This document shows, in pieces, positions 2,573-62,888 of a stretch of 64,000 nt of DNA. Every line of letters starts with the position of its first letter. Position 1 is the stretch's first letter. This DNA is from Puniceicoccaceae bacterium K14 (GTDB taxonomy: Bacteria; Verrucomicrobiota; Verrucomicrobiia; Opitutales; Opitutaceae): positions 1 to 64,000 of the forward strand of contig JAKYXN010000008.1 of assembly GCA_022538095.1 (NCBI GenBank), written 5' to 3'. The position numbers and the translations under genes are program-made. Below the pieces are notes generated by a model. That model saw only the letters and a list, made by a program, of their open reading frames with translations, ran no database searches and was not told the DNA's origin.

Positions 2573-2677
2573 CCTGGCTGGATAGATTCGCATAAATTTA
2601 CCGCACCTGCAATTCGTGCTAAGGCGACCGGCGAGCTACCAAATTAGTGTAGTAGCAGTGCAATGCAATACAATAAG
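2573..2677 (+). repeat. direct repeat copy A (about 105 bp)
   Basis: Bases 2573-2643 match 17088-17158 at 63 of 71 positions without indels, and weaker similarity continues in register to a shared GCAATACA block. Both copies can be read in the same frame as related peptides containing H-K-F, A-P, I-R-A-K-A-T-G and L-P. This copy stops at a TAG at 2644-2646. This suggests remnants of one coding or mobile sequence. The 3' end of the repeat overlaps the longest possible reading frame of the neighbouring histidine kinase. Confidence 0.8.
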
Positions 2678-2824
2678 GCTGAGAGAGAGTTGTATTTCCT
2701 AGGGCAACACCCCAGAAGTCTTTGCTTGCGACATTACGCGATCTCCGATAATTCTACTTGTGGAGGGATGCTCAATCGCAGGGTTTGCGGCGACATTGCC
2801 AAAGCGAAAGCAAATCAAAATATC

Positions 2825-3901
2825 ATGATAGCAAACAAGGGAAATCTCTTTAATCAAATTTATGAAGATGCCCTGAAGGCTCATCTGTCCCGCAAGTCTC
2901 GTGGAGCGACAAAATCCTGGATAGCCCGCAAGATAGGCAAAGAAGCGATTGCTCAGGGACTTAATGCGATAGACCTCGCTAGTATTCACGACCAGGCGAT
3001 ACGGCGACTTAGGCCGAAGGACACTGCTGCGACTGTGACAGGAACAGGCGATGGCTACGTTTCGCGGTCCACTCTTTTCTACATCGAAGCTCTCGTGCCG
3101 CTTGAGCAAGTCCGTAAAGCGGAGCAGACGAAGTTGAAGCAATTCGAAAAGGAACTCGAAAAGCAAACGCAGCGGGAAGCCAAGCGACAGAACAAACTCC
3201 TCGAGGAAGCACGGAGTCAAAAGGAGGAAGTACGGCAGCTGACCCACCAATTCCTTCTCGCTCAAGAGAGGGAGCGTAAGGAGATCAGTCGCGATTTGCA
3301 CGATGAGATCGCGCAGGTGTTAGCTGGAATCAATGTTCGTTTGGCAGCCCTCAAGAAAGTCGTTCAGATTGGAGGAGAAGACATCAGCGAGCGAATCGAC
3401 CAAACCCAAAAACTGGTGGAACATTCTGTTGCGGCTGTCCACCGATACGCGCTTCGCTTGAGACCTTCCTTACTGGATGATTTGGGGCTGATTCCTACTC
3501 TTCGCTCCTACATAGGCACGCACTCGGAGCATCATGGGATTAGCATCCAATTCGATGTCAGCGCGGAAGTCGACTCATTGGGCAATGAACCATGTACAGC
3601 TTTATACCGCGTCGCCCAAGAATCGCTGACGAATGTCGTTCGCCACTCCAACGCCAAGAACGCTTACGTAAAACTAGAATGCCGCGCTCAGCGGATACGA
3701 CTTGAAATTCGAGATGACGGTAGAGGATTCGATGCAAACCGTATCCTGAATTCAACAACACAAAAGCGACTGGGTGTACTCGGCATGCGAGAGCGAATCG
3801 AAATGCTCAATGGAATTTTTTCCATAACATCATCGAGCTCGAAGGGGACGACCGTAGTTGCAGATCTGCCCTTCGATAACGATTCGAGCGAAATTACATG
3901 A
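2825..3901 (+). CDS. cytoplasmic histidine kinase with RsbU_N-like sensor domain
   Basis: The product is a NarX/DesK-type sensor kinase. Residues 1 to about 80 resemble the RsbU N-terminal domain (an L-F-x-x-I-Y-E-x-A-L start and G-L-x-x-I-D-L-A-x-I-H). A charged coiled coil follows, then a HisKA_3 dimerisation domain with R-D-L-H-D-E-I-A-Q, where the phosphoacceptor His is codon 3299-3301. The HATPase_c domain ends it, with N-V-V-R-H-S, D-D-G-R-G-F and G-V-L-G-M-R-E-R. There is no membrane segment, so the signal is probably internal or comes from a partner protein. The frame is open back to an ATG at 2663, but that extension lies partly in the direct repeat, so I use the ATG at 2825. Its stop overlaps the response-regulator start (ATGA), so the two are co-translated. 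Confidence 0.85.
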   Translation: MIANKGNLFNQIYEDALKAHLSRKSRGATKSWIARKIGKEAIAQGLNAIDLASIHDQAIRRLRPKDTAATVTGTGDGYVSRSTLFYIEALVPLEQVRKAEQTKLKQFEKELEKQTQREAKRQNKLLEEARSQKEEVRQLTHQFLLAQERERKEISRDLHDEIAQVLAGINVRLAALKKVVQIGGEDISERIDQTQKLVEHSVAAVHRYALRLRPSLLDDLGLIPTLRSYIGTHSEHHGISIQFDVSAEVDSLGNEPCTALYRVAQESLTNVVRHSNAKNAYVKLECRAQRIRLEIRDDGRGFDANRILNSTTQKRLGVLGMRERIEMLNGIFSITSSSSKGTTVVADLPFDNDSSEIT

Positions 3902-4581
3902 AGAAAATCACAGTACTATTGGCAGAAGACCACTGCATCGTTCGCGAGGGGCTTAGGACACTTTTGGAATTGAGCGAAGGATTCGAGGTCGTAAGCGAAG
4001 CGTCGACTGGACGGGAAGCGGTCAATATGGCCTGCGAGCTTCGTCCCGATGTCGTCGTCATGGATATCGCCATGCAGGGCCTAAATGGCTTCGAAGCCAC
4101 GCGGCAAATCCTCCTTTCGGCGCCCAAGGTCAGAGTGCTGGTGCTCTCTGCTCATAGCGATGACGAGTATGTAGGACGCATGGCGGAAGTCGGAGCATCA
4201 GGATACTTGGTAAAGCAAAATTCGGGCGACGTTCTGGTCCAAGCAATCAGAGAGATAGCGGCGGGCAGGTCCTTCTTTAGCCCAAGCATCGCCAGGCGTT
4301 TACAAAAGGCCAAAGAGAAGTCGCGCTTGGCCGGGACTTCGCGTGAAAACCTCGTGCCTTCGCTGACAAAACGAGAGACCGAGGTATTTCAGCTAGTCGC
4401 CGAAGGCCTGGCGAACAAGCAGATGGCTGCGGAGCTGGGGATCAGTATCAAAACTATCGAGAAGCATCGCCAGCAATTGATGAATAAGCTAGATATTCAC
4501 GACACTGCGGGGCTAACCCGACATGCGATTGCTACAGGCGTGATCGAAAGCAGCGTTCAGGAAACGACCGGAGAGAGTTGA
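3898..4581 (+). CDS. NarL/FixJ-family response regulator
   Basis: This 227-residue DNA-binding regulator is the partner of the histidine kinase whose stop codon it overlaps by four bases. The receiver domain (1-120) has acidic residues E10/D11, phosphoacceptor D56 in V-V-M-D-I, a S-A-H switch region and the conserved Lys in G-Y-L-V-K. A linker leads to a LuxR-type helix-turn-helix (about 155-215), with L-T-K-R-E-T-E-V-F, L-A-N-K-Q-M-A-A-E-L and K-T-I-E-K-H-R-Q. It should be phosphorylated by the kinase and regulate promoters, most likely of island genes; that target is inference. I see no palindromic site that would identify its operator. Confidence 0.92.
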   Translation: MKKITVLLAEDHCIVREGLRTLLELSEGFEVVSEASTGREAVNMACELRPDVVVMDIAMQGLNGFEATRQILLSAPKVRVLVLSAHSDDEYVGRMAEVGASGYLVKQNSGDVLVQAIREIAAGRSFFSPSIARRLQKAKEKSRLAGTSRENLVPSLTKRETEVFQLVAEGLANKQMAAELGISIKTIEKHRQQLMNKLDIHDTAGLTRHAIATGVIESSVQETTGES

Positions 4582-29925: not shown

Positions 29926-31884
29926 TTACAAAGTCGCCAGATTCTCAATGTTCAGGTGCTCGTTAAGCAGTTCATAAAATCGACGCGGATTCAGGGGTTT
30001 GGAAATATGGTCGACGCATCCTGCACTCATCGCATCTTCCCTTTCGGAAGTCATAACACAGGCTGATTGAGCAATAATAGGTAGACGCGGTCTTTCTTTC
30101 GAGATCATGCGACTCGCTTCGAATCCATTCAAACCTGGCATTTTAAGGTCCATTAAAACGAGATCTATATTATTTTGCTCCCTAACAATCTCAATAGCCT
30201 CGTTCCCATCCTTAGCATGAAGGACTCTCGCGTTGTGATGGCGAAGAAGCTTCTCAACTAAGAGAAAATTGGTGAGATCATCGTCTGCGACCAAGATTAG
30301 AGCTTGATTGAAATTTGCCCCAAATGACCTGTTATTGGATACACTCCTTATCAGTTGCTCATTATTAGAACACTCTAAAGGCACCCGAAAACCAAAAGTG
30401 CTACCGTGTCCTAAACGCGACTTAACCCAGATTTTCCCGTGCAACAAGTCAGCGATCCCTTTGCAAATAGAAAGCCCGAGCCCTGCTCCATTGACCGTTC
30501 TGTTCATGGAATCTTCTGCTTGGGAAAAACGATCGAAAATAATCTCTAAATCAGCTGGAGCAATCCCGTACCCTGTGTCGACAACATAAAACTCCAAAGT
30601 ATTCTCCGCCAATATCCTGTATCCAAAATTCACAGACCCTTTATCGGTAAACTTCACTGCATTACTCAAGAAATTGATTAAAACCTGCCTCGTTCTCAAC
30701 TCGTCACCAACAATGGCGAAGCAGGTCTCCACATCATTATCCAAAACGATTTCCACTTCTTCAGAACCTTTAGACTTAGTAACACCTTCAAATGCAGTGA
30801 GCACTTCAAGCATCAGACAGTTCAAGTCGAACTCCTCCTTGTTTATCGTAAGCTGATTCGCTTCCAATTGAGCTAGATCAATTAAATCGCCAATAAGTTG
30901 CACTAGGTGCTCCCCGTTTTTGTTGATAATATCGATATAGCGAGCCTTGTCCTCGTTGGTCGCATTGCCCATTTTGAGCAATTGAGCAAAACCCATGATT
31001 CCATTGAGAGGCGTTCGAATCTCATGGGACATGTTCGCCAAAAATGCAGATTTCAAACGATCGCTTTCTTCCGCTTTTTCTTTTGCTAAACGTAATTCCG
31101 CTTCTCCCAATTTACGTTGAGTAATATCAGCCAGTGTCCCAAGCACAACCAAAGGCTTACCATCTGATGATCGAATCAAACGCCCTTTCCCTTCTAACCA
31201 TCGGATTTCACCATTGGATAATGTGATTCGGTGCTCAGCGTAGTACTCACTGCCATCGCTCAATACATTTTCTAACTGGCTGGCAACTTCCGCTCTATCA
31301 TCTGGGTGGACTCGTTCAAGATAGGCTTCGTAAGTCGGATCAAGCGCCCCCTTCGGCATACCAAAAATTTTCTCCACGTATTCCGACCAAATTACTTTAC
31401 CCGAGTTGGCTTCCCAGCTCCAAGTCCCCATATCAGCCGCCTCCAACGCCAGCCGCAAATGTTCCTCACTCTCCCTTAAAGCTCGTACAGCCTCCAGCTT
31501 TTCTAAGCGTATTCGCTTTTGAATGAGTTCTCTCCGCACCGCAGGGACAAAGCGATTCCAGTGCCCTTTTATGATATAATCGCATGCTCCATTCCTCATC
31601 GAATCGATTGCAAACTCCTCTCCCTTGGCATTGGAGAGCATTATTAGAGGGGTCTCATTTTCGAGTTCTTTCAGTAAAATCAAAGCCTCTAGACCCGAAA
31701 ATCTTTCCGCCGAATATTCCGCGACAACGATACTCCAAGATCGAGAATTAATCGCTTTTAAAAAAGCTTTTTGACTACCGACAACCTGACTATGTACCTC
31801 AAAGCCACCCCGATCCAGTTCGCTCAAAATACGGCGAACATCCTCAGAGTTGGCCTCAACTAAAAGTACAGTTATGGGTGTCAT
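29926..31884 (-). CDS. soluble hybrid histidine kinase (REC-PAS-HisKA-HATPase-REC)
   Basis: The 652-residue cytoplasmic protein begins with a receiver-like domain (1-120) that is degenerate. The phosphoacceptor position is Glu56 (V-V-A-E-Y) and the acidic pair E-D is E-A. A PAS/PAC sensor domain follows (about 140-265; W-S-W-E-A, G-T-L-A-D-I-T-Q-R). Next is a HisKA domain with [11 protein letters not shown], then HATPase_c with D-T-G-Y-G-I and G-L-G-L-S-I. The C-terminal receiver is intact, with D-L-V-L-M-D-L-K-M-P and S-K-P. No output domain is present, so phosphate probably goes on to another protein. It lies downstream of dapB by 220 bp and is probably its own transcript. Confidence 0.92.
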   Translation of the reverse strand: MTPITVLLVEANSEDVRRILSELDRGGFEVHSQVVGSQKAFLKAINSRSWSIVVAEYSAERFSGLEALILLKELENETPLIMLSNAKGEEFAIDSMRNGACDYIIKGHWNRFVPAVRRELIQKRIRLEKLEAVRALRESEEHLRLALEAADMGTWSWEANSGKVIWSEYVEKIFGMPKGALDPTYEAYLERVHPDDRAEVASQLENVLSDGSEYYAEHRITLSNGEIRWLEGKGRLIRSSDGKPLVVLGTLADITQRKLGEAELRLAKEKAEESDRLKSAFLANMSHEIRTPLNGIMGFAQLLKMGNATNEDKARYIDIINKNGEHLVQLIGDLIDLAQLEANQLTINKEEFDLNCLMLEVLTAFEGVTKSKGSEEVEIVLDNDVETCFAIVGDELRTRQVLINFLSNAVKFTDKGSVNFGYRILAENTLEFYVVDTGYGIAPADLEIIFDRFSQAEDSMNRTVNGAGLGLSICKGIADLLHGKIWVKSRLGHGSTFGFRVPLECSNNEQLIRSVSNNRSFGANFNQALILVADDDLTNFLLVEKLLRHHNARVLHAKDGNEAIEIVREQNNIDLVLMDLKMPGLNGFEASRMISKERPRLPIIAQSACVMTSEREDAMSAGCVDHISKPLNPRRFYELLNEHLNIENLATL

Positions 31885-55614: not shown

Positions 55615-56286
55615 ATGGAAAATTTCGATAACGAAAGCCAATCAGATAATAATTGGGACGACCACAATTGGGAGTCGGCTTGGAATGAGTTCGACTGGGA
55701 ACGTTACCTTAAAAGCGAAGATAACGAAGTTCTCAAATATCAAAAACTCTACAGCAAATTGGTTAAAAGCCAAAATCGGTTAGATGAAGTCGCTCTATAT
55801 ATGGGCTGGGACTCAGCCAACCTCCCCGAACAAACTTCCATAGACTCAAGCTCAGGCCAACAGCTCGAAAATTCCGAAGCTCCTTATACCCTACACCGAC
55901 ATCCGCTTTTTATCGCGAGCAAAGCCCTTCATTCCTGGCTTCAAGAAAAATGGATGCAACACTCGTCGCTCGCTTCTCAATACATATCACCAGAGCTAGC
56001 TCTAAAACTTAGCAGCTCTTTTAGCCAATCCGATTACCAAGGACTTCTCGCTGTAATGGCACTCGACATGGGTGATTACGCCCTAGCCATTGCTTATCTT
56101 AAAAGAGGAATGGCTTCCATTAACGATTCATTCGCTGCCCTAGAAGAAATTTCCCAATTAGAGATTGAACCACTCCCTCGCTATGTGACTCAAGCAAAGA
56201 TTCGACTCTTTGACATCAGGGACATATGGCTTCGTGTTGTGGCCGACTGCCGGGCGGCAGTTGCTAAAAAATCAGAAGAAGAGTAA
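55615..56286 (+). CDS. hypothetical protein paired with sigma-like gene
   Basis: The 223-residue soluble protein is not one I recognise. The first 35 residues are very acidic and rich in Trp, Asn and Asp (N-W-D-D-H-N-W-E). A helical part follows, with A-L-H-S-W-L-Q-E-K-W, then D-Y-Q-G-L-L-A-V-M-A-L-D-M-G-D-Y-A-L-A-I-A-Y-L, which resembles one tetratricopeptide-like hairpin. The gene is 27 bp upstream of the degenerate sigma-like gene and probably forms a two-gene operon with it. A role as a partner or anti-factor is only a guess. Confidence 0.65.
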   Translation: MENFDNESQSDNNWDDHNWESAWNEFDWERYLKSEDNEVLKYQKLYSKLVKSQNRLDEVALYMGWDSANLPEQTSIDSSSGQQLENSEAPYTLHRHPLFIASKALHSWLQEKWMQHSSLASQYISPELALKLSSSFSQSDYQGLLAVMALDMGDYALAIAYLKRGMASINDSFAALEEISQLEIEPLPRYVTQAKIRLFDIRDIWLRVVADCRAAVAKKSEEE

Positions 56287-56313
56287 CTCTTATTCTCCAA
56301 CTTTCATTTGCTC

Positions 56314-57114
56314 ATGTCTTTCTTAACAAAGAAAGGTTCTTCCGCTAGTAGGACCGAAAGAAATCATATTCGGGCTCTTCTGAAAAAGTCAGGACAAGGA
56401 AACTCAATAGCCTTCACCCAAGTTTTTACTTGTTACGCAAACTTTCTGAGCTGCTACTTCTACACACTTGGTTATACCGATGCTGATGCTAGGAATCGCG
56501 AAATCGAAAAGACGCTCGTAAAAATTTGGAAATACCTACCATACACAAAGAGAGTGTCGGACCTTGAGCGCTTCCTTTTTATTCAATTGGGAGACGAACA
56601 GCCTCTCGAAGGAAGAGAATTTCCTGAGTTACACGCTTATTTGGCTAACCTTCGTCACGAGCATAGATTTCTTTTGGTAGCCCGTATATTCGAAAGATGG
56701 AATTACAAAGAACTAAAGCTGGCCCTTCGAGCCAATGAAAAAGAAATCGCCTTTGAACTAATGACTGTGAAGTCAAAGCTGATCGGGTTTCAAAGCCACT
56801 TACTCAAACTGCAAGAGAAAGCTCGAATCGTACAAATCAGCGAACTTCTTGAAGGAAATATTTCAGAAAAAAATTCTCGAAAAATCGAAACTCAAATAGC
56901 TACGGAATACAGCTCGCTGCAATTCAAAGCCGATTGGCTTGCTTATCGTTGCGAGCTTGCCGAATTACTCGAGTCGATTAGGATGGCTCCCGAAGAGCAG
57001 GAAGAGCTTAAAGAAAGAATTCCTGAGCTAATCAAAAGTGAATCGATGGCACGGCCCAAGTTAACAGACAATTTGAGTAACCTTGTCTCCTTCGACGTTC
57101 TCCCTTCGAGGTAA
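56314..57114 (+). CDS. degenerate ECF sigma-factor-like protein
   Basis: The 266-residue protein resembles an ECF sigma factor in layout. Residues about 22-75 look like region 2 (G-N-S-I-A-F-T-Q-V-F-T-C-Y, then E-K-T-L-V-K-I-W-K-Y-L). Residues about 105-155 look like a region 4 helix-turn-helix (H-R-F-L-L-V-A-R-I-F-E-R-W-N-Y-K-E-L-K). About 100 extra C-terminal residues are helical, with E-L-A-E-L-L-E-S-I. The conserved DNA-melting residues are weak, so it may be a derived regulator rather than a working sigma. I use the ATG at 56314; a TTG start lies six bases earlier. Confidence 0.55.
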   Translation: MSFLTKKGSSASRTERNHIRALLKKSGQGNSIAFTQVFTCYANFLSCYFYTLGYTDADARNREIEKTLVKIWKYLPYTKRVSDLERFLFIQLGDEQPLEGREFPELHAYLANLRHEHRFLLVARIFERWNYKELKLALRANEKEIAFELMTVKSKLIGFQSHLLKLQEKARIVQISELLEGNISEKNSRKIETQIATEYSSLQFKADWLAYRCELAELLESIRMAPEEQEELKERIPELIKSESMARPKLTDNLSNLVSFDVLPSR

Positions 57115-57126
57115 TAACTCAGCGGT

Positions 57127-59610
57127 TCAACCAGTCGACTCTAATTCAATTTTGGTTTTTCGAGACTGGCAGTAGTAATCAACGACACTCAAAAGCTTCT
57201 CTGCCTTTATTGGCTTAGCTAGGAAGTTATCCATTCCGCACTCGAAGCACCGTCGTTTATCTTCATCAAAGGCATTTGCTGTTAAGGCTATAATCGGAAT
57301 GTCTTTGTTTATATGCCCAATCGGGAACGAGCGAATCTTCTTTGTCGCTTCAAAGCCATTCATCAAGGGCATTCGACAATCCATTAGAATAAAGTCGAAA
57401 GATTTCCTTCCGAGCTCGCGAAGAGCTGCCAACCCATTTTCAGCAATTGTTACTTCGTGCCTTCGTCTCTCTAAGAAAGATTTGATGACATGCTGATTAA
57501 TGGAATTGTCCTCTACCATAAGAATGCTCTTCTCAAAAACGTTCTTTACCTCAAATGGTATTTCATTCGTTGAAGAAACATCCACTCCCACACGCACACC
57601 CATCCAAAATTCAAAAACACTTCCTTTCCCATAAGTGCTTCGAGCATTGAGCTCAGCACCCATTACCGCAGCCAATCGCTTAGAGATCGACAACCCTAAA
57701 CCGGTACCGCCACTCGAGGAATCCCCCTTGCTATCAACCTGTATAAAAGCGTCGAATACATCATTAAGAGAATCCTCATGAATTCCGACCCCAGAATCTA
57801 TCACAGAAACCAACACGCCCTCTTTGGAATTTCTATCTTGGGTTTCTACGACGAGCTCAACGTAACCTTCATTAGTAAACTTTACAGCATTACTAAGTAA
57901 ATTGGTAAGTATCTGCTTTATCCTTACAGAATCACCAATTAAAAACTGCGGAACATCCTCTCCTATTGAAATCCTATACTCAATACCTCTTTCATTCGCT
58001 TTGGAAAGAAAAAGAGAAAACGCAGCCTTACACGCCTCGACAAAATCAAACGAATCGGCTTTCAACTCCATTTTACCCGCCTCAATTTTTGAAAAATCGA
58101 GAATATCATCAACGATACACATCAGTGCTTCGCCAGATACTTTTACAATTTCAACGCGCTCTCGAATCTCTTCTGGCAAGTCTCGTTCCAGTAAATCATC
58201 CGACATTCCAATAATACCGTTCATCGGTGTGCGAATTTCATGTGACATCGTTGCCAAAAACTCTCCTTTAGCATCGTTTGCTAATTTCGCCTTCGCCTCT
58301 GCCGCCGCCCTTTCTCCAATCTCTTGAACGAGGTGCCTGTTTGCCATTCGTAGCTCGTCAGTCTTAGAGGCAACTACTGAATCCAAATTTCGGATATTTG
58401 ATTTTATCTTTAGCCTCATTTGGTCGATAGCGCTAGCCAATGAATCCAGCTCATCACCTCTAGAGTATGTCTGCACTTCAATATCGAGATTACCGGATTT
58501 TATCTCGTTTGCTGCCGATATCAAAGAAACCAATGAAGAACTTAGCTTGCGCGAAGCGAACAAAACCGCAACCGCGGAAACAAAGACAATAAGCACAAAC
58601 GCAACGATATAAACCTCACGTCGATCGATAGCTCTCTCCTTTAGATTTTCTACTCGGACTGCTAGTGAGCTTGCTTCACCAGCAGTATCGTCGACCGCAC
58701 TTGCCCAAGCAATCGCTTCTCGATTCAGAGCTTGATTAGAAAAAGCGAGAAACGCGTTTAATTTCCCAGACACAATTTCTGTATTCAGTAACTGGACCTC
58801 TTTTTCTTCCAAATAGGAGAGAGACTCATTTGAACCTTCGGGCCAAATGGCGTTGTCATGCAATTTGAAATAGACAAAAGCTTGTTCATTGCCATCACCT
58901 AGCTCAGTCAAATCCTGACAAACCGTTTCTAGTGGAATTATAAATTGGAGATAACCTAGCTTTTTCCCTATGCTTTTTTGATAGCGAGAATTAGCAATCC
59001 TCAAATCAAGAGCAATAGAAAGCGAAGGAACGCCTGTATTCAATATATCAATCTCAAAAGCCTCTCCTGAATCCATCCGTTTTTTAAACCGATTCATAGA
59101 ATCTGAATGGCTAACATCTGGAATCACCTCTAAAACTCCATCATCCAGCGAATGTGATAAACGAGTAGTCTCTAGAAGAAGCTCCCCTTCAACGTCGAAA
59201 ATCCGAACGACATCCAAGTTTAAGGAATTTATGAAGCCATCCAAATACAACATAGTCTCTGGCTTCATAAATTTTCGAATGGGGTCATTGCCTGATATAA
59301 ATTGTGCGACATCCTTGCTCTTCGCCGCCAACTCCATACTGTTTTTGATACTAGAGATCCTTCCCTCAATAACCTCTCCAATATTCTCCAGAGCTAGCTT
59401 ATGCCCTTCTCTGACTTGTTCCTTAAATTTTGAAACAACCTCGACATAAGTGTCATTAGCATTTGTTGAAAGCGAAGCAAATTCACCTGAACTGCGCCTT
59501 AAATTCTCGGCAAAATCGATGTAGCTGCTAATGGAAAAGAGGCCAATTCCGATCAAGGGAATCAATACAAAGGGCAATACGTATAGGAAAAGCTTGTACT
59601 TAATTTTCAT
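57127..59610 (-). CDS. membrane hybrid histidine kinase coupled to PotD-like protein
   Basis: The 827-residue inner-membrane kinase has helix 1 (about 9-30), a periplasmic sensor region (about 31-335) and helix 2 (about 337-358, [17 protein letters not shown]). HAMP, HisKA ([11 protein letters not shown]), HATPase_c (D-S-G-V-G-I and G-L-G-L-S-I) and a C-terminal receiver with F-I-L-M-D-C-R-M-P follow. Its start overlaps the stop of a polyamine-type binding protein gene by 11 bp. The periplasmic domain probably reads the ligand state of that protein. No output regulator is adjacent. Confidence 0.93.
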
Positions 59611-60697
59611 TCAAGAACCGATGCCAATACTGTATCAACGATGCAGAACGCATAGAAAACTCGTGAAGTCCCCTTACCGTTTCAGGCAGAGGATATATGT
59701 TCTCATCCAACAATTGATCTGGCGCACGTTTCTCAACAATACTAAGTGCCGCGAGGTTTAATGTAGGAAATAGCAATTCCATCGACTCCCTAGCATTGAT
59801 ATCTGGTCTCAGCATGAAGTTTAAAAATGAGTGAGCGAGCTCCTTGTTTTTTGATGACGAAGGAATCACAAAAGAATCAATATAGTACTCTGCTCCCTCA
59901 CTTGGAATTATATACTCAATATTCGATTCTTCCTCGGCTATCCCTAATGCATCCCCAGAGTACATAATCGCAAAGCCAATTTCTCCGTTTACAAGCTTTT
60001 CTCCAAGAAGTTCGACGCTGGTTGAGATCGTATCAATCAGATTCGCGGATTTCAAGCGATGCAACGTTTTTGCGGCATCACTGTGATATCCTCTTCGGTT
60101 AGTGTTTGGATCATTTCCTAACATGATGCTAACTAAACCAAACATCACCTGGCTATCGTTTAAAATCGCTCGTTTCACATCGGGGCTAAATTCTGGATCG
60201 AAAAATTGATCTAATCCCGTAACCATTTGACTGACAAGATCCGAGCGAAAAGCTATTCCAGTAGTGCCATATAAATAAGGCATCGCGTAATTCCAAATAT
60301 CTCTCTGCGACTCTAAGTCATCGTAAAATAGAGATACATAGCGATAATTGGGAATCTTCACCTTATCGAGAGGTTCCACATAGCCGCCTTCAATCATTCT
60401 TACGACCTCTCCAGACGAAGCGACCACAACGTCATAAAACCCCTCATTCTTATCAATTCGAGAAAATGCCTCAGTTGTCTCTTCGTATTCATAGTACTCC
60501 ACCTTGCATCCAAATTCCTTTGAAAACTCGCGGAGAGCATAGGACTTCTCTTCGATCGCCAAACCATCATCAACCTTTGGGTCGACTGATAAATACTCAG
60601 ACCAATTTAAAACACGAAGAACCGGAACCTCTTCGCTTTCAGCAATCAGACAAGAACTTGCTAGAAGCAAAATGGAAAAAATAGTACGGGTATACAC
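59600..60697 (-). CDS. PotD/PotF-like periplasmic binding protein
   Basis: The 365-residue protein has a signal peptide with a possible lipobox (L-A-S-S-C). A spermidine/putrescine-type solute-binding fold follows: [40 protein letters not shown] and Y-Y-I-D-S-F-V-I-P. The Asp of the S-G-D-A segment corresponds to a ligand-contacting residue in PotD. No potABC transporter genes are near. The overlap with the hybrid kinase gene suggests a sensing role, as for NspS with MbaA in Vibrio cholerae or LuxP with LuxQ. Ligand identity is inference. Confidence 0.88.
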
Positions 60698-60750: not shown

Positions 60751-61596
60751 CTACCTAAATAATAATGTCGGCAATCGACAATCACGCAACATTTCAGTCG
60801 TAGCACTTCCTATAAACAGATGCCGTATCCGTGAATGCCCGTACGCACCCATAATCAACAAATCAATATCGCTCGACTTACAATACTCTGCGATAGTCTG
60901 GCTCGGAATGCCGTGAAGCATCTGGCAGCTAACGTCAAACGACGCATTTCGCAAATCACTTTCAACCTTATTGATTGAACGAAGTGCCTCTTCTTCCTCT
61001 TGATTTGGCGAGACCGTTATAAGATGTAATTCAAAACTCCTTAGCCAAGCCTGCCTTTTAATAAAAGTGATAGCTTCGTGACAACTGGGAACATCTTGGT
61101 AAGCAAAGAGAATTTTTCGTACCGAAGTAAATGAGCGAGACGACACAAAACAAGGCTTCGTCGCAGATCGAACAACTCTTTCCATCGTAGATCCCAAATG
61201 TTCAGTTGCAAAATTCGCATTTTCACCCCGTTTGCCGATTACAATTAGATCAGCGTTGGATTCTAGCTCTTTCAAGCTGTCTACCAAAAAACCAGTCTTA
61301 TGCGTTTTAGCAACGTCCCCTTTATGTCCGAATTCTCGCAAGACTTTCTCGCACTGATTAAGAATAATGTCTGCCTTCTGCTTTTCCAACTCCTGAAGCT
61401 GGCCCATTACAGCTTGGTAGGGCTGCAACCCGAGACTTCCACTCAAGTCAGCGATAAACGGAACCTCAAATTGACGAAGATCGGTTACGTAGACAACTTC
61501 TAAACTGGCACCGGATAGCTGAGCCAACCAAGCAGCGTACTGACAGCAAGTGGCCATGTAATTTGACCCATCAACGCATGCCAATATCCGCTTCAT
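60751..61596 (-). CDS. universal stress protein, tandem Usp domains
   Basis: The 281-residue cytoplasmic protein has two UspA domains. The first (1-150) has V-I-G-K-R-G then nine residues and G-S-T, the ATP-binding G-2x-G-9x-G-S/T motif. The second (about 160-281) has M-G-A-Y-G-H then I-G-S-A-T. Both seem able to bind nucleotide. The gene starts 11 bases after glgC on the same strand, so it is linked to glycogen synthesis, which many bacteria raise under stress. Confidence 0.93.
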   Translation of the reverse strand: MKRILACVDGSNYMATCCQYAAWLAQLSGASLEVVYVTDLRQFEVPFIADLSGSLGLQPYQAVMGQLQELEKQKADIILNQCEKVLREFGHKGDVAKTHKTGFLVDSLKELESNADLIVIGKRGENANFATEHLGSTMERVVRSATKPCFVSSRSFTSVRKILFAYQDVPSCHEAITFIKRQAWLRSFELHLITVSPNQEEEEALRSINKVESDLRNASFDVSCQMLHGIPSQTIAEYCKSSDIDLLIMGAYGHSRIRHLFIGSATTEMLRDCRLPTLLFR

Positions 61597-61607
61597 GATT
61601 ATTAATA

Positions 61608-62888
61608 CTATATAACAGTGTTATCAGGAATAACCGCGTTTTTTTGCACTATAACAATGTTGTCACGTACGTAAACCCCGTCTTTTTCATAACCCTCCGG
61701 CTTGCCCTCTGGGCTCAAGGTAACATTGGACCCTATCCGTGCCCCCTTGTCTATAATGGCATTTTTTATTTCGCAGTTCATACCAACACCGATGTCGGGA
61801 ATTCCCTTTTTCTCATTAGCCTCTCTATCCGCAGAACTCTCGAAATAATCAGAGCCCATCATAATTACGTTTTCTAAACGTGTCCCTTCTCTCAATACTG
61901 ACCGGATTCCAATTACACACCGCTTGAGATAAGAGTCTGTTATGATACACCCATCTCCAATGATCACGTGGTTAATCGAGCAGCGGTTGATCTTGCTAGC
62001 CGGAAGATAACGAGCTCGCGAGTACACGGGCTTGCCGCGAGAAAAAAAGTTAAACTGAGGAAATGGATCTGCCAATTGAAGGTTCGCATCAAAAAACGCC
62101 TTAACTGTTCCAATATCCTCCCAATACCCCTCGAAAATGTAGCAAGATAGCTTAGAAGACTCTAACAAACTTGGTATGACCTCTTTACCAAAATCTGTCA
62201 TATCATTGGCCAAAGCTTTTTCCATCGTCTCGCGGTTGAAAATGTAGATACCCATTGAGGCTAAGCAGCGTTCACCGTCTTCCGGGTTCTCGAGAGCGTC
62301 CTTTATTGAATCTGGAATAACTAATCCGTCAATTACACCCGGATCTGTTGGTTTTTCTACAAATTCAGTCACCGTCATATCGTCAGCAACTCGCATCAAG
62401 CCGAGCCCGTGCACTTGGTCCTTCGGAAATGGAATGCCAGCCACGGTAACATCCGCCCCAGATTCAATATGGGCGCTAAGCATCTTCCCGTAATCCATTC
62501 GATACAACTGATCACCCGACAAGATAATAGTGTAATCATAATCCGAAGACGAAAAATGGTGCAAATTCTGACGAACAGCATCAGCCGTCCCTTGATACCA
62601 ATTGTCTCCAGAGTTAGTCTGCTCAGCGGACAGTATATCAACGACTCCACCACCAAAAGGGTCAAAACGATAAGTCTCTTGAATATGCCTATGCAATGAA
62701 GCGGTATTAAACTGCGACAATAGATAAATATTGTTAATCCCTGAATTCAAACAATTGCTTATTGGGATATCTACCAGTCTGTATTTTCCCGCCAGAGGGA
62801 CCGCTGGTTTGCAGCGTTCTTTAGTCAATGGGTAAAGACGAGTGCCGCGCCCCCCTCCCATAATTACAGCGATAGCTTTTTTTTGCAT
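61608..62888 (-). CDS. glgC: glucose-1-phosphate adenylyltransferase
   Basis: This 426-residue ADP-glucose pyrophosphorylase makes the glucosyl donor for glycogen. It has the nucleotide-binding G-G-G-R-G-T-R-L-Y-P-L-T, an effector/substrate Lys in R-C-K-P-A-V-P, N-S-G-I, L-S-G-D-Q-L-Y-R-M-D-Y, V-E-K-P, and a left-handed beta-helix C terminus with Y-L-K-R-C-V-I-G. glgA, glgB and glgP are not in the window. It heads a two-gene unit with the Usp gene. A 190-bp upstream region without genes should hold the promoter. Confidence 0.96.
   Translation of the reverse strand: MQKKAIAVIMGGGRGTRLYPLTKERCKPAVPLAGKYRLVDIPISNCLNSGINNIYLLSQFNTASLHRHIQETYRFDPFGGGVVDILSAEQTNSGDNWYQGTADAVRQNLHHFSSSDYDYTIILSGDQLYRMDYGKMLSAHIESGADVTVAGIPFPKDQVHGLGLMRVADDMTVTEFVEKPTDPGVIDGLVIPDSIKDALENPEDGERCLASMGIYIFNRETMEKALANDMTDFGKEVIPSLLESSKLSCYIFEGYWEDIGTVKAFFDANLQLADPFPQFNFFSRGKPVYSRARYLPASKINRCSINHVIIGDGCIITDSYLKRCVIGIRSVLREGTRLENVIMMGSDYFESSADREANEKKGIPDIGVGMNCEIKNAIIDKGARIGSNVTLSPEGKPEGYEKDGVYVRDNIVIVQKNAVIPDNTVI

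Follow-up and report, generated by a model that had tools for sequence, protein, structure and literature searches.

A PotD-type binding-protein gene overlapping a hybrid histidine kinase gene: a candidate amine co-receptor in a verrucomicrobial genome

What does a polyamine-type solute-binding protein do when its gene overlaps that of a membrane kinase and no transporter genes are nearby? The question is raised by Puniceicoccaceae bacterium K14 (Opitutales; Verrucomicrobiota; assembly GCA_022538095.1, here G000), in which such a pair lies in the stretch of DNA analyzed, positions 1-64,000 of contig JAKYXN010000008.1 (the window). The original prediction was of an exported PotD-like protein that works with a hybrid kinase as NspS works with MbaA and LuxP with LuxQ. 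We hold with moderate confidence that the pair would be an amine co-receptor on the lines of LuxP-LuxQ that feeds a phosphorelay, analogous to NspS-MbaA but with a kinase output, rather than part of an importer.

Two overlapping genes in a genome without a PotC-like permease

The features of the locus, all on the minus strand, are as follows.

59600..60697, minus: exported solute-binding protein of the PotD/PotF type, 365 aa, possibly a lipoprotein; a 14-residue insert follows NWSEY
57127..59610, minus: hybrid histidine kinase, 827 aa, with TM, dCache-like periplasmic domain, TM, HAMP, HisKA, HATPase and receiver
59600..59610, minus: 11-bp gene overlap holding the binding-protein stop codon and the kinase ATG
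58618..59529, minus: kinase residues ~28-331, the periplasmic sensor region, dCache-like in a predicted model
60751..61596, minus: universal stress protein with two domains, encoded 53 bp upstream of the binding-protein gene
61608..62888, minus: ADP-glucose pyrophosphorylase of the GlgC type, on the upstream side of the stress protein gene and 11 bp from it

The binding-protein ORF has a GTG start and an N-terminal hydrophobic leader, and lies upstream of the kinase gene. The overlap was found as predicted, but the description of the two genes as "fused" was not borne out, since they are read in separate frames, which rules out a true fusion protein. The universal stress protein gene and glgC may share the transcript of the pair. 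Convergent with the kinase gene are two consecutive genes (55615-57114, plus strand; 223 and 268 aa) that gave no Pfam match. Elsewhere the window encodes a further hybrid kinase (29926-31884, minus; PAS-HisKA-HATPase plus two receiver stretches) and a HisKA_3 kinase with a LuxR-type response regulator, the genes of which overlap by 4 bp (2663-4581, plus).

No potABC genes adjoin the binding-protein gene. When the whole assembly (5.72 Mb, 97% complete) was searched with a PotC query, no PotC-like permease was found; the matches, at E 2e-12 and weaker, read as ModB-like and iron-type permeases, and the PotC proteins of potABCD operons in the order score far better with the same query. Hence the search gave no Pot permease with which the binding protein could work, and the claim that the pair stands without PotABC held both beside the pair and for full potABC genes elsewhere in the assembly. 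A hidden PotABC system was also sought with the PotC query in two further genomes (G105 and G018); all matches were again weak, and those read (in G000 and G105) were ModB-like and iron-type. The single sugar-type binding protein of the assembly has its own permeases.

Two PotD-like proteins are encoded in the assembly, that of the window and, on contig C351, a paralogue with 36% identity to it (L030, 187-1317, minus). The paralogue carries the same insert and stands alone near a contig end. As C351 ends 186 bp behind this gene, its partner, if any, may lie on the missing side. The genome also encodes the carboxynorspermidine decarboxylase NspC (516 bits against a cut-off of 409 bits), and by this sequence match the host probably makes (nor)spermidine. 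With no usual polyamine importer, and with the binding protein encoded directly before a sensor kinase, the host probably senses extracellular amines rather than importing them.

The ligand pocket and the kinase sensor

The prediction of a PotD-like protein was upheld by family and by fold. Pfam assigns the protein to SBP_bac_8 (4e-22), and its PDB sequence matches include Lmo0810 (1e-35), PotD (1e-31) and PotF (1e-29); by sequence, PotD and PotF are its best characterized relatives. Its NCBIfam PotD score is 117 bits, far under the equivalog cut-off of 582. An AlphaFold model (pLDDT 90, 13 sequences) matched PotF, SpuD and PotD best (Z 35-38), whereas GABA and opine binders gave Z values of 28-31. 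The traits of the polyamine branch of these proteins (the PotD/PotF family) are present in both sequence and predicted fold.

The pocket was mapped by a phmmer alignment to E. coli PotD, using what we take to be the spermidine contacts of that protein. PotD D168 and D257 are kept as D181 and D274, and W34 and Y37 are W32 and Y35, which lie within the conserved NWSEY motif. Tyrosines replace W229 and W255 (Y246 and Y272), phenylalanine replaces Y293 (F310) and aspartate replaces S232 (D249), the last as in most surveyed relatives. The pocket positions W32, Y35, D181, Y246, D249, Y272, D274 and F310 are therefore kept or conservatively changed, but E171 has become V184 and Y85 has become G96, and the S211 and Q327 positions are also altered, so that the complete PotD contact set is absent. 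Owing to the replacement of E171 and Y85, PotD-like spermidine binding by the window protein is not assured. Aligned via PotD rather than directly, the NspS residues W41, Y233, D236, W261 and D263 correspond to W32, Y246, D249, Y272 and D274, with one conservative change (W261 to Tyr) among these contacts and with NspS D70, D90 and F131 left out of the mapping. The resemblance to PotD, and by way of PotD probably that to NspS, extends to most pocket positions but not to PotD E171, and the ligand is likely a small amine.

That amine may not be a polyamine. A co-receptor for GABA, 5-aminovalerate, agmatine or another small amine is the strongest of the alternatives, although we consider it unlikely. 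It would account for the loss of E171 and Y85, and it has precedents in the orphan SBP_bac_8 proteins of Pseudomonas aeruginosa, which were predicted to bind spermidine but bound GABA (PMC11113362), and in a SAR11 PotD-family protein solved with GABA (8jv1, Z 30.6). Against it, PotF, SpuD and PotD match the model clearly better than do the GABA and opine binders, and D249 and D274, the counterparts of NspS D236 and D263, are kept. In five clade-mates from other genomes the position of E171 holds Glu or Asp and that of W255 holds Trp, which makes a polyamine the better bet for those proteins; one of the five (L136) lacks W34 and Y37.

In the kinase, Pfam detected HAMP (352-402), HisKA (447-512), HATPase (559-670) and receiver (696-810) domains, with His457 of HisKA and Asp744 of the C-terminal receiver as the predicted phosphoacceptor residues. 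The predicted periplasmic domain of about 300 residues was read from the sequence between hydrophobic segments at ~8-27 and 332-352. Pfam found no Cache domain in this kinase. A low-confidence model of its N-terminus built with four relatives (pLDDT 66) has a double Cache topology, and at that confidence it matched the dCache domains of histidine kinases, DctB included (Z 14), plus the polyamine chemoreceptor McpU. A weaker Foldseek match of the same pLDDT 66 model was the LuxQ periplasmic domain from the LuxP complex (1zhh_B, E 4e-4).

The two closest kinases, one in the same genome (C221) and one in G018, have no adjoining binding protein. The former (L029, 5527-8001, plus) is an unpaired paralogue with the same type of sensor, and upstream of it are ABC export-type genes and a gene for a His-rich lipoprotein-like protein. 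In the alignment, a PWF stretch present in both of these unpaired kinases is missing from the window kinase, a sequence hint that its sensor may no longer bind ligand in the usual Cache manner.

Recurrence of the arrangement in the order and phylum

Conserved linkage, which the original prediction would lead one to expect, was found for the arrangement but not for the pair itself. The searches covered 200 genomes of the family, 323 of the order and a sample of 388 from the phylum. Among the 200 family genomes the exact pair occurs in no other genome, and a subfamily search gave no close homologue of the binding protein besides its own paralogue. Deep conservation of the exact pair was rejected: searches with the kinase sensor gave only unpaired paralogues in the 323 order genomes and one weak, unpaired kinase in the 388 phylum genomes.

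Similar permease-free pairs, each a PotD-type protein with a hybrid kinase, are nevertheless present in six further genomes of the order and phylum that are only distantly related, one pair per genome, at distances from a 4-bp overlap to an 18-bp gap. G105 holds the best binding-protein match outside the host among the 323 order genomes, with a 1058-aa dCache hybrid kinase encoded 18 bp downstream; no pot genes lie beside this pair, and none of the weak matches to the PotC query in that genome was PotC-like. In the other five (G450, G515, G658, G392 and G477) the binding-protein gene is followed by that of a ~890-aa dCache-HAMP-PAS-HisKA-HATPase-receiver kinase, with a 4-bp overlap in four of the five. 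G450 and G515 gave the two best binding-protein matches outside the host in the phylum sample.

Among 102 binding-protein places surveyed, the window excluded, no kinase gene follows at any of the 62 with a permease close by, whereas one follows at 6 of the 40 places without a permease. A Fisher test gave p = 0.003 when run as 6/41 versus 0/62, one place more than the true count of 6/40, and because the survey comprised matches to a profile in which the window and G105 proteins were themselves included, the number is descriptive and gives no unbiased rate. The remaining 34 places have neither permease nor kinase. Plasmid-borne relatives were considered as further pairs and rejected, since the four loci read were orphan PotD-type genes without kinases. 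Permease-free PotD-type proteins are thus common, and the orphan state alone proves little. In G473 a kinase gene lies in front of the transporter genes of a potABCD locus.

The binding proteins paired with ~890-aa kinases (five of the six further pairs) group in a single clade (support 99 and 100). A second clade (support 98), to which the insert is common, unites the window protein with its C351 paralogue and with a G521 protein encoded at a contig end. The G521 gene (L124, contig C245, 3-1028, minus) carries the same insert and runs off its contig end, so that a kinase could follow. An IQ-TREE branch with negligible support (8) grouped nine binding proteins, all of the paired ones included, against 40 others, and a single origin of the paired proteins is neither shown nor excluded. 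As the groups of pairs have different kinase cores, either the pairing arose repeatedly or one kinase was swapped for another.

These data bear on whether the two proteins are partners at all. The kinase might have its own Cache ligand and the binding protein be an orphan or serve a distant permease, a reading that we judge less probable than that of a different amine. It draws on the related kinases without adjoining binding proteins, on the unpaired PotD-type paralogue and on the negative precedent of AgtS and AruS (PMC11113362). It is opposed by the 11-bp overlap, by the failure of the PotC query to find a PotC-like permease in the genome, by the six further pairs, five of them from one clade, and by the missing PWF stretch. 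Least probable is that the window protein and its C351 paralogue bring different amines to one or both of the related host kinases; the shared 14-residue insert, the clade with a third protein and the unpaired C221 kinase are compatible with this, but the contig end hides the paralogue's own neighbor.

A candidate receptor compared with known systems

In the co-receptor that we favor, the ligand of the exported PotD-type protein would be a small cationic amine, with a polyamine or a close relative the most likely, and the protein would dock on the periplasmic, dCache-like domain of the adjoining kinase. Ligand-driven closure would alter the kinase dimer and set the balance of kinase and phosphatase activities. 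Phosphate would move from His457 to Asp744 in the kinase's own receiver and then, presumably, to an HPt protein and a response regulator encoded elsewhere.

NspS-MbaA of Vibrio cholerae and Sinorhizobium meliloti resembles this arrangement in that a PotD-type protein encoded without a transporter signals rather than transports (as we propose here), and in that its gene overlaps that of an inner-membrane receptor with a periplasmic domain, by 16 bp in V. cholerae (PMC9993111). MbaA differs in its GGDEF-EAL (c-di-GMP) output, in place of which the window kinase has HisKA-HATPase-receiver. Vibrio LuxP-LuxQ likewise joins a periplasmic binding protein to a hybrid kinase, with a tandem PAS/Cache sensor in LuxQ and a dCache-like one here (in the low-confidence model). 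LuxP is a ribose-binding-type protein that binds AI-2, whereas the window protein is SBP_bac_8, PotF-like by sequence and fold, and not of the LuxP family. The proposed analogy is supported in part, LuxQ being among the fold matches of the low-confidence model, but neither the GGDEF-EAL output nor a LuxP-type binding protein is present. The pair is like LuxP-LuxQ in its kinase and like NspS-MbaA in its binding protein, and is a member of neither. PotD and PotF of the PotABCD and PotFGHI importers are homologous to the window protein, but those systems are permease-based, whereas this genome has no PotC-like permease and couples the binding-protein gene to a kinase.

To our knowledge, the use of a transporter-type binding protein to sense polyamines has been found only with c-di-GMP output (NspS-MbaA), and our search among openly licensed papers found no report of a PotD-type/hybrid-kinase pair. 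In P. aeruginosa, SBP_bac_8 proteins are encoded near the sensor kinases AgtS and AruS, by genes that are separate and further apart than the window pair; of these binding proteins, PA0602 (near AgtS) and PA4985 (near AruS) are orphans. The proteins near these kinases bound GABA or 5-aminovalerate, but no kinase contact was found for the two orphans or for AgtB, although the genes lie together in 10 of 11 characterized binding-protein/kinase pairs (PMC11113362). This absence of contact is the strongest caution on the co-receptor reading, which also has against it the loss of E171 and Y85, the lack of a close homologue of the exact pair in the 200 family genomes, the unpaired nearest kinases and the pLDDT of 66 for the sensor.

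More broadly, and more tentatively, with a likelihood that we put a little short of even, the pairs may represent a phylum-wide class in which an ex-importer PotD-type protein has become the obligate ligand half of a dCache hybrid kinase, giving a polyamine or amine phosphorelay that had two or more origins, with differing kinase cores. The loci offer concrete test cases for whether a binding-protein gene beside a kinase gene signifies a shared receptor, and a conserved PotD-type/kinase pair, if real, would couple amines outside the cell to a phosphorelay.
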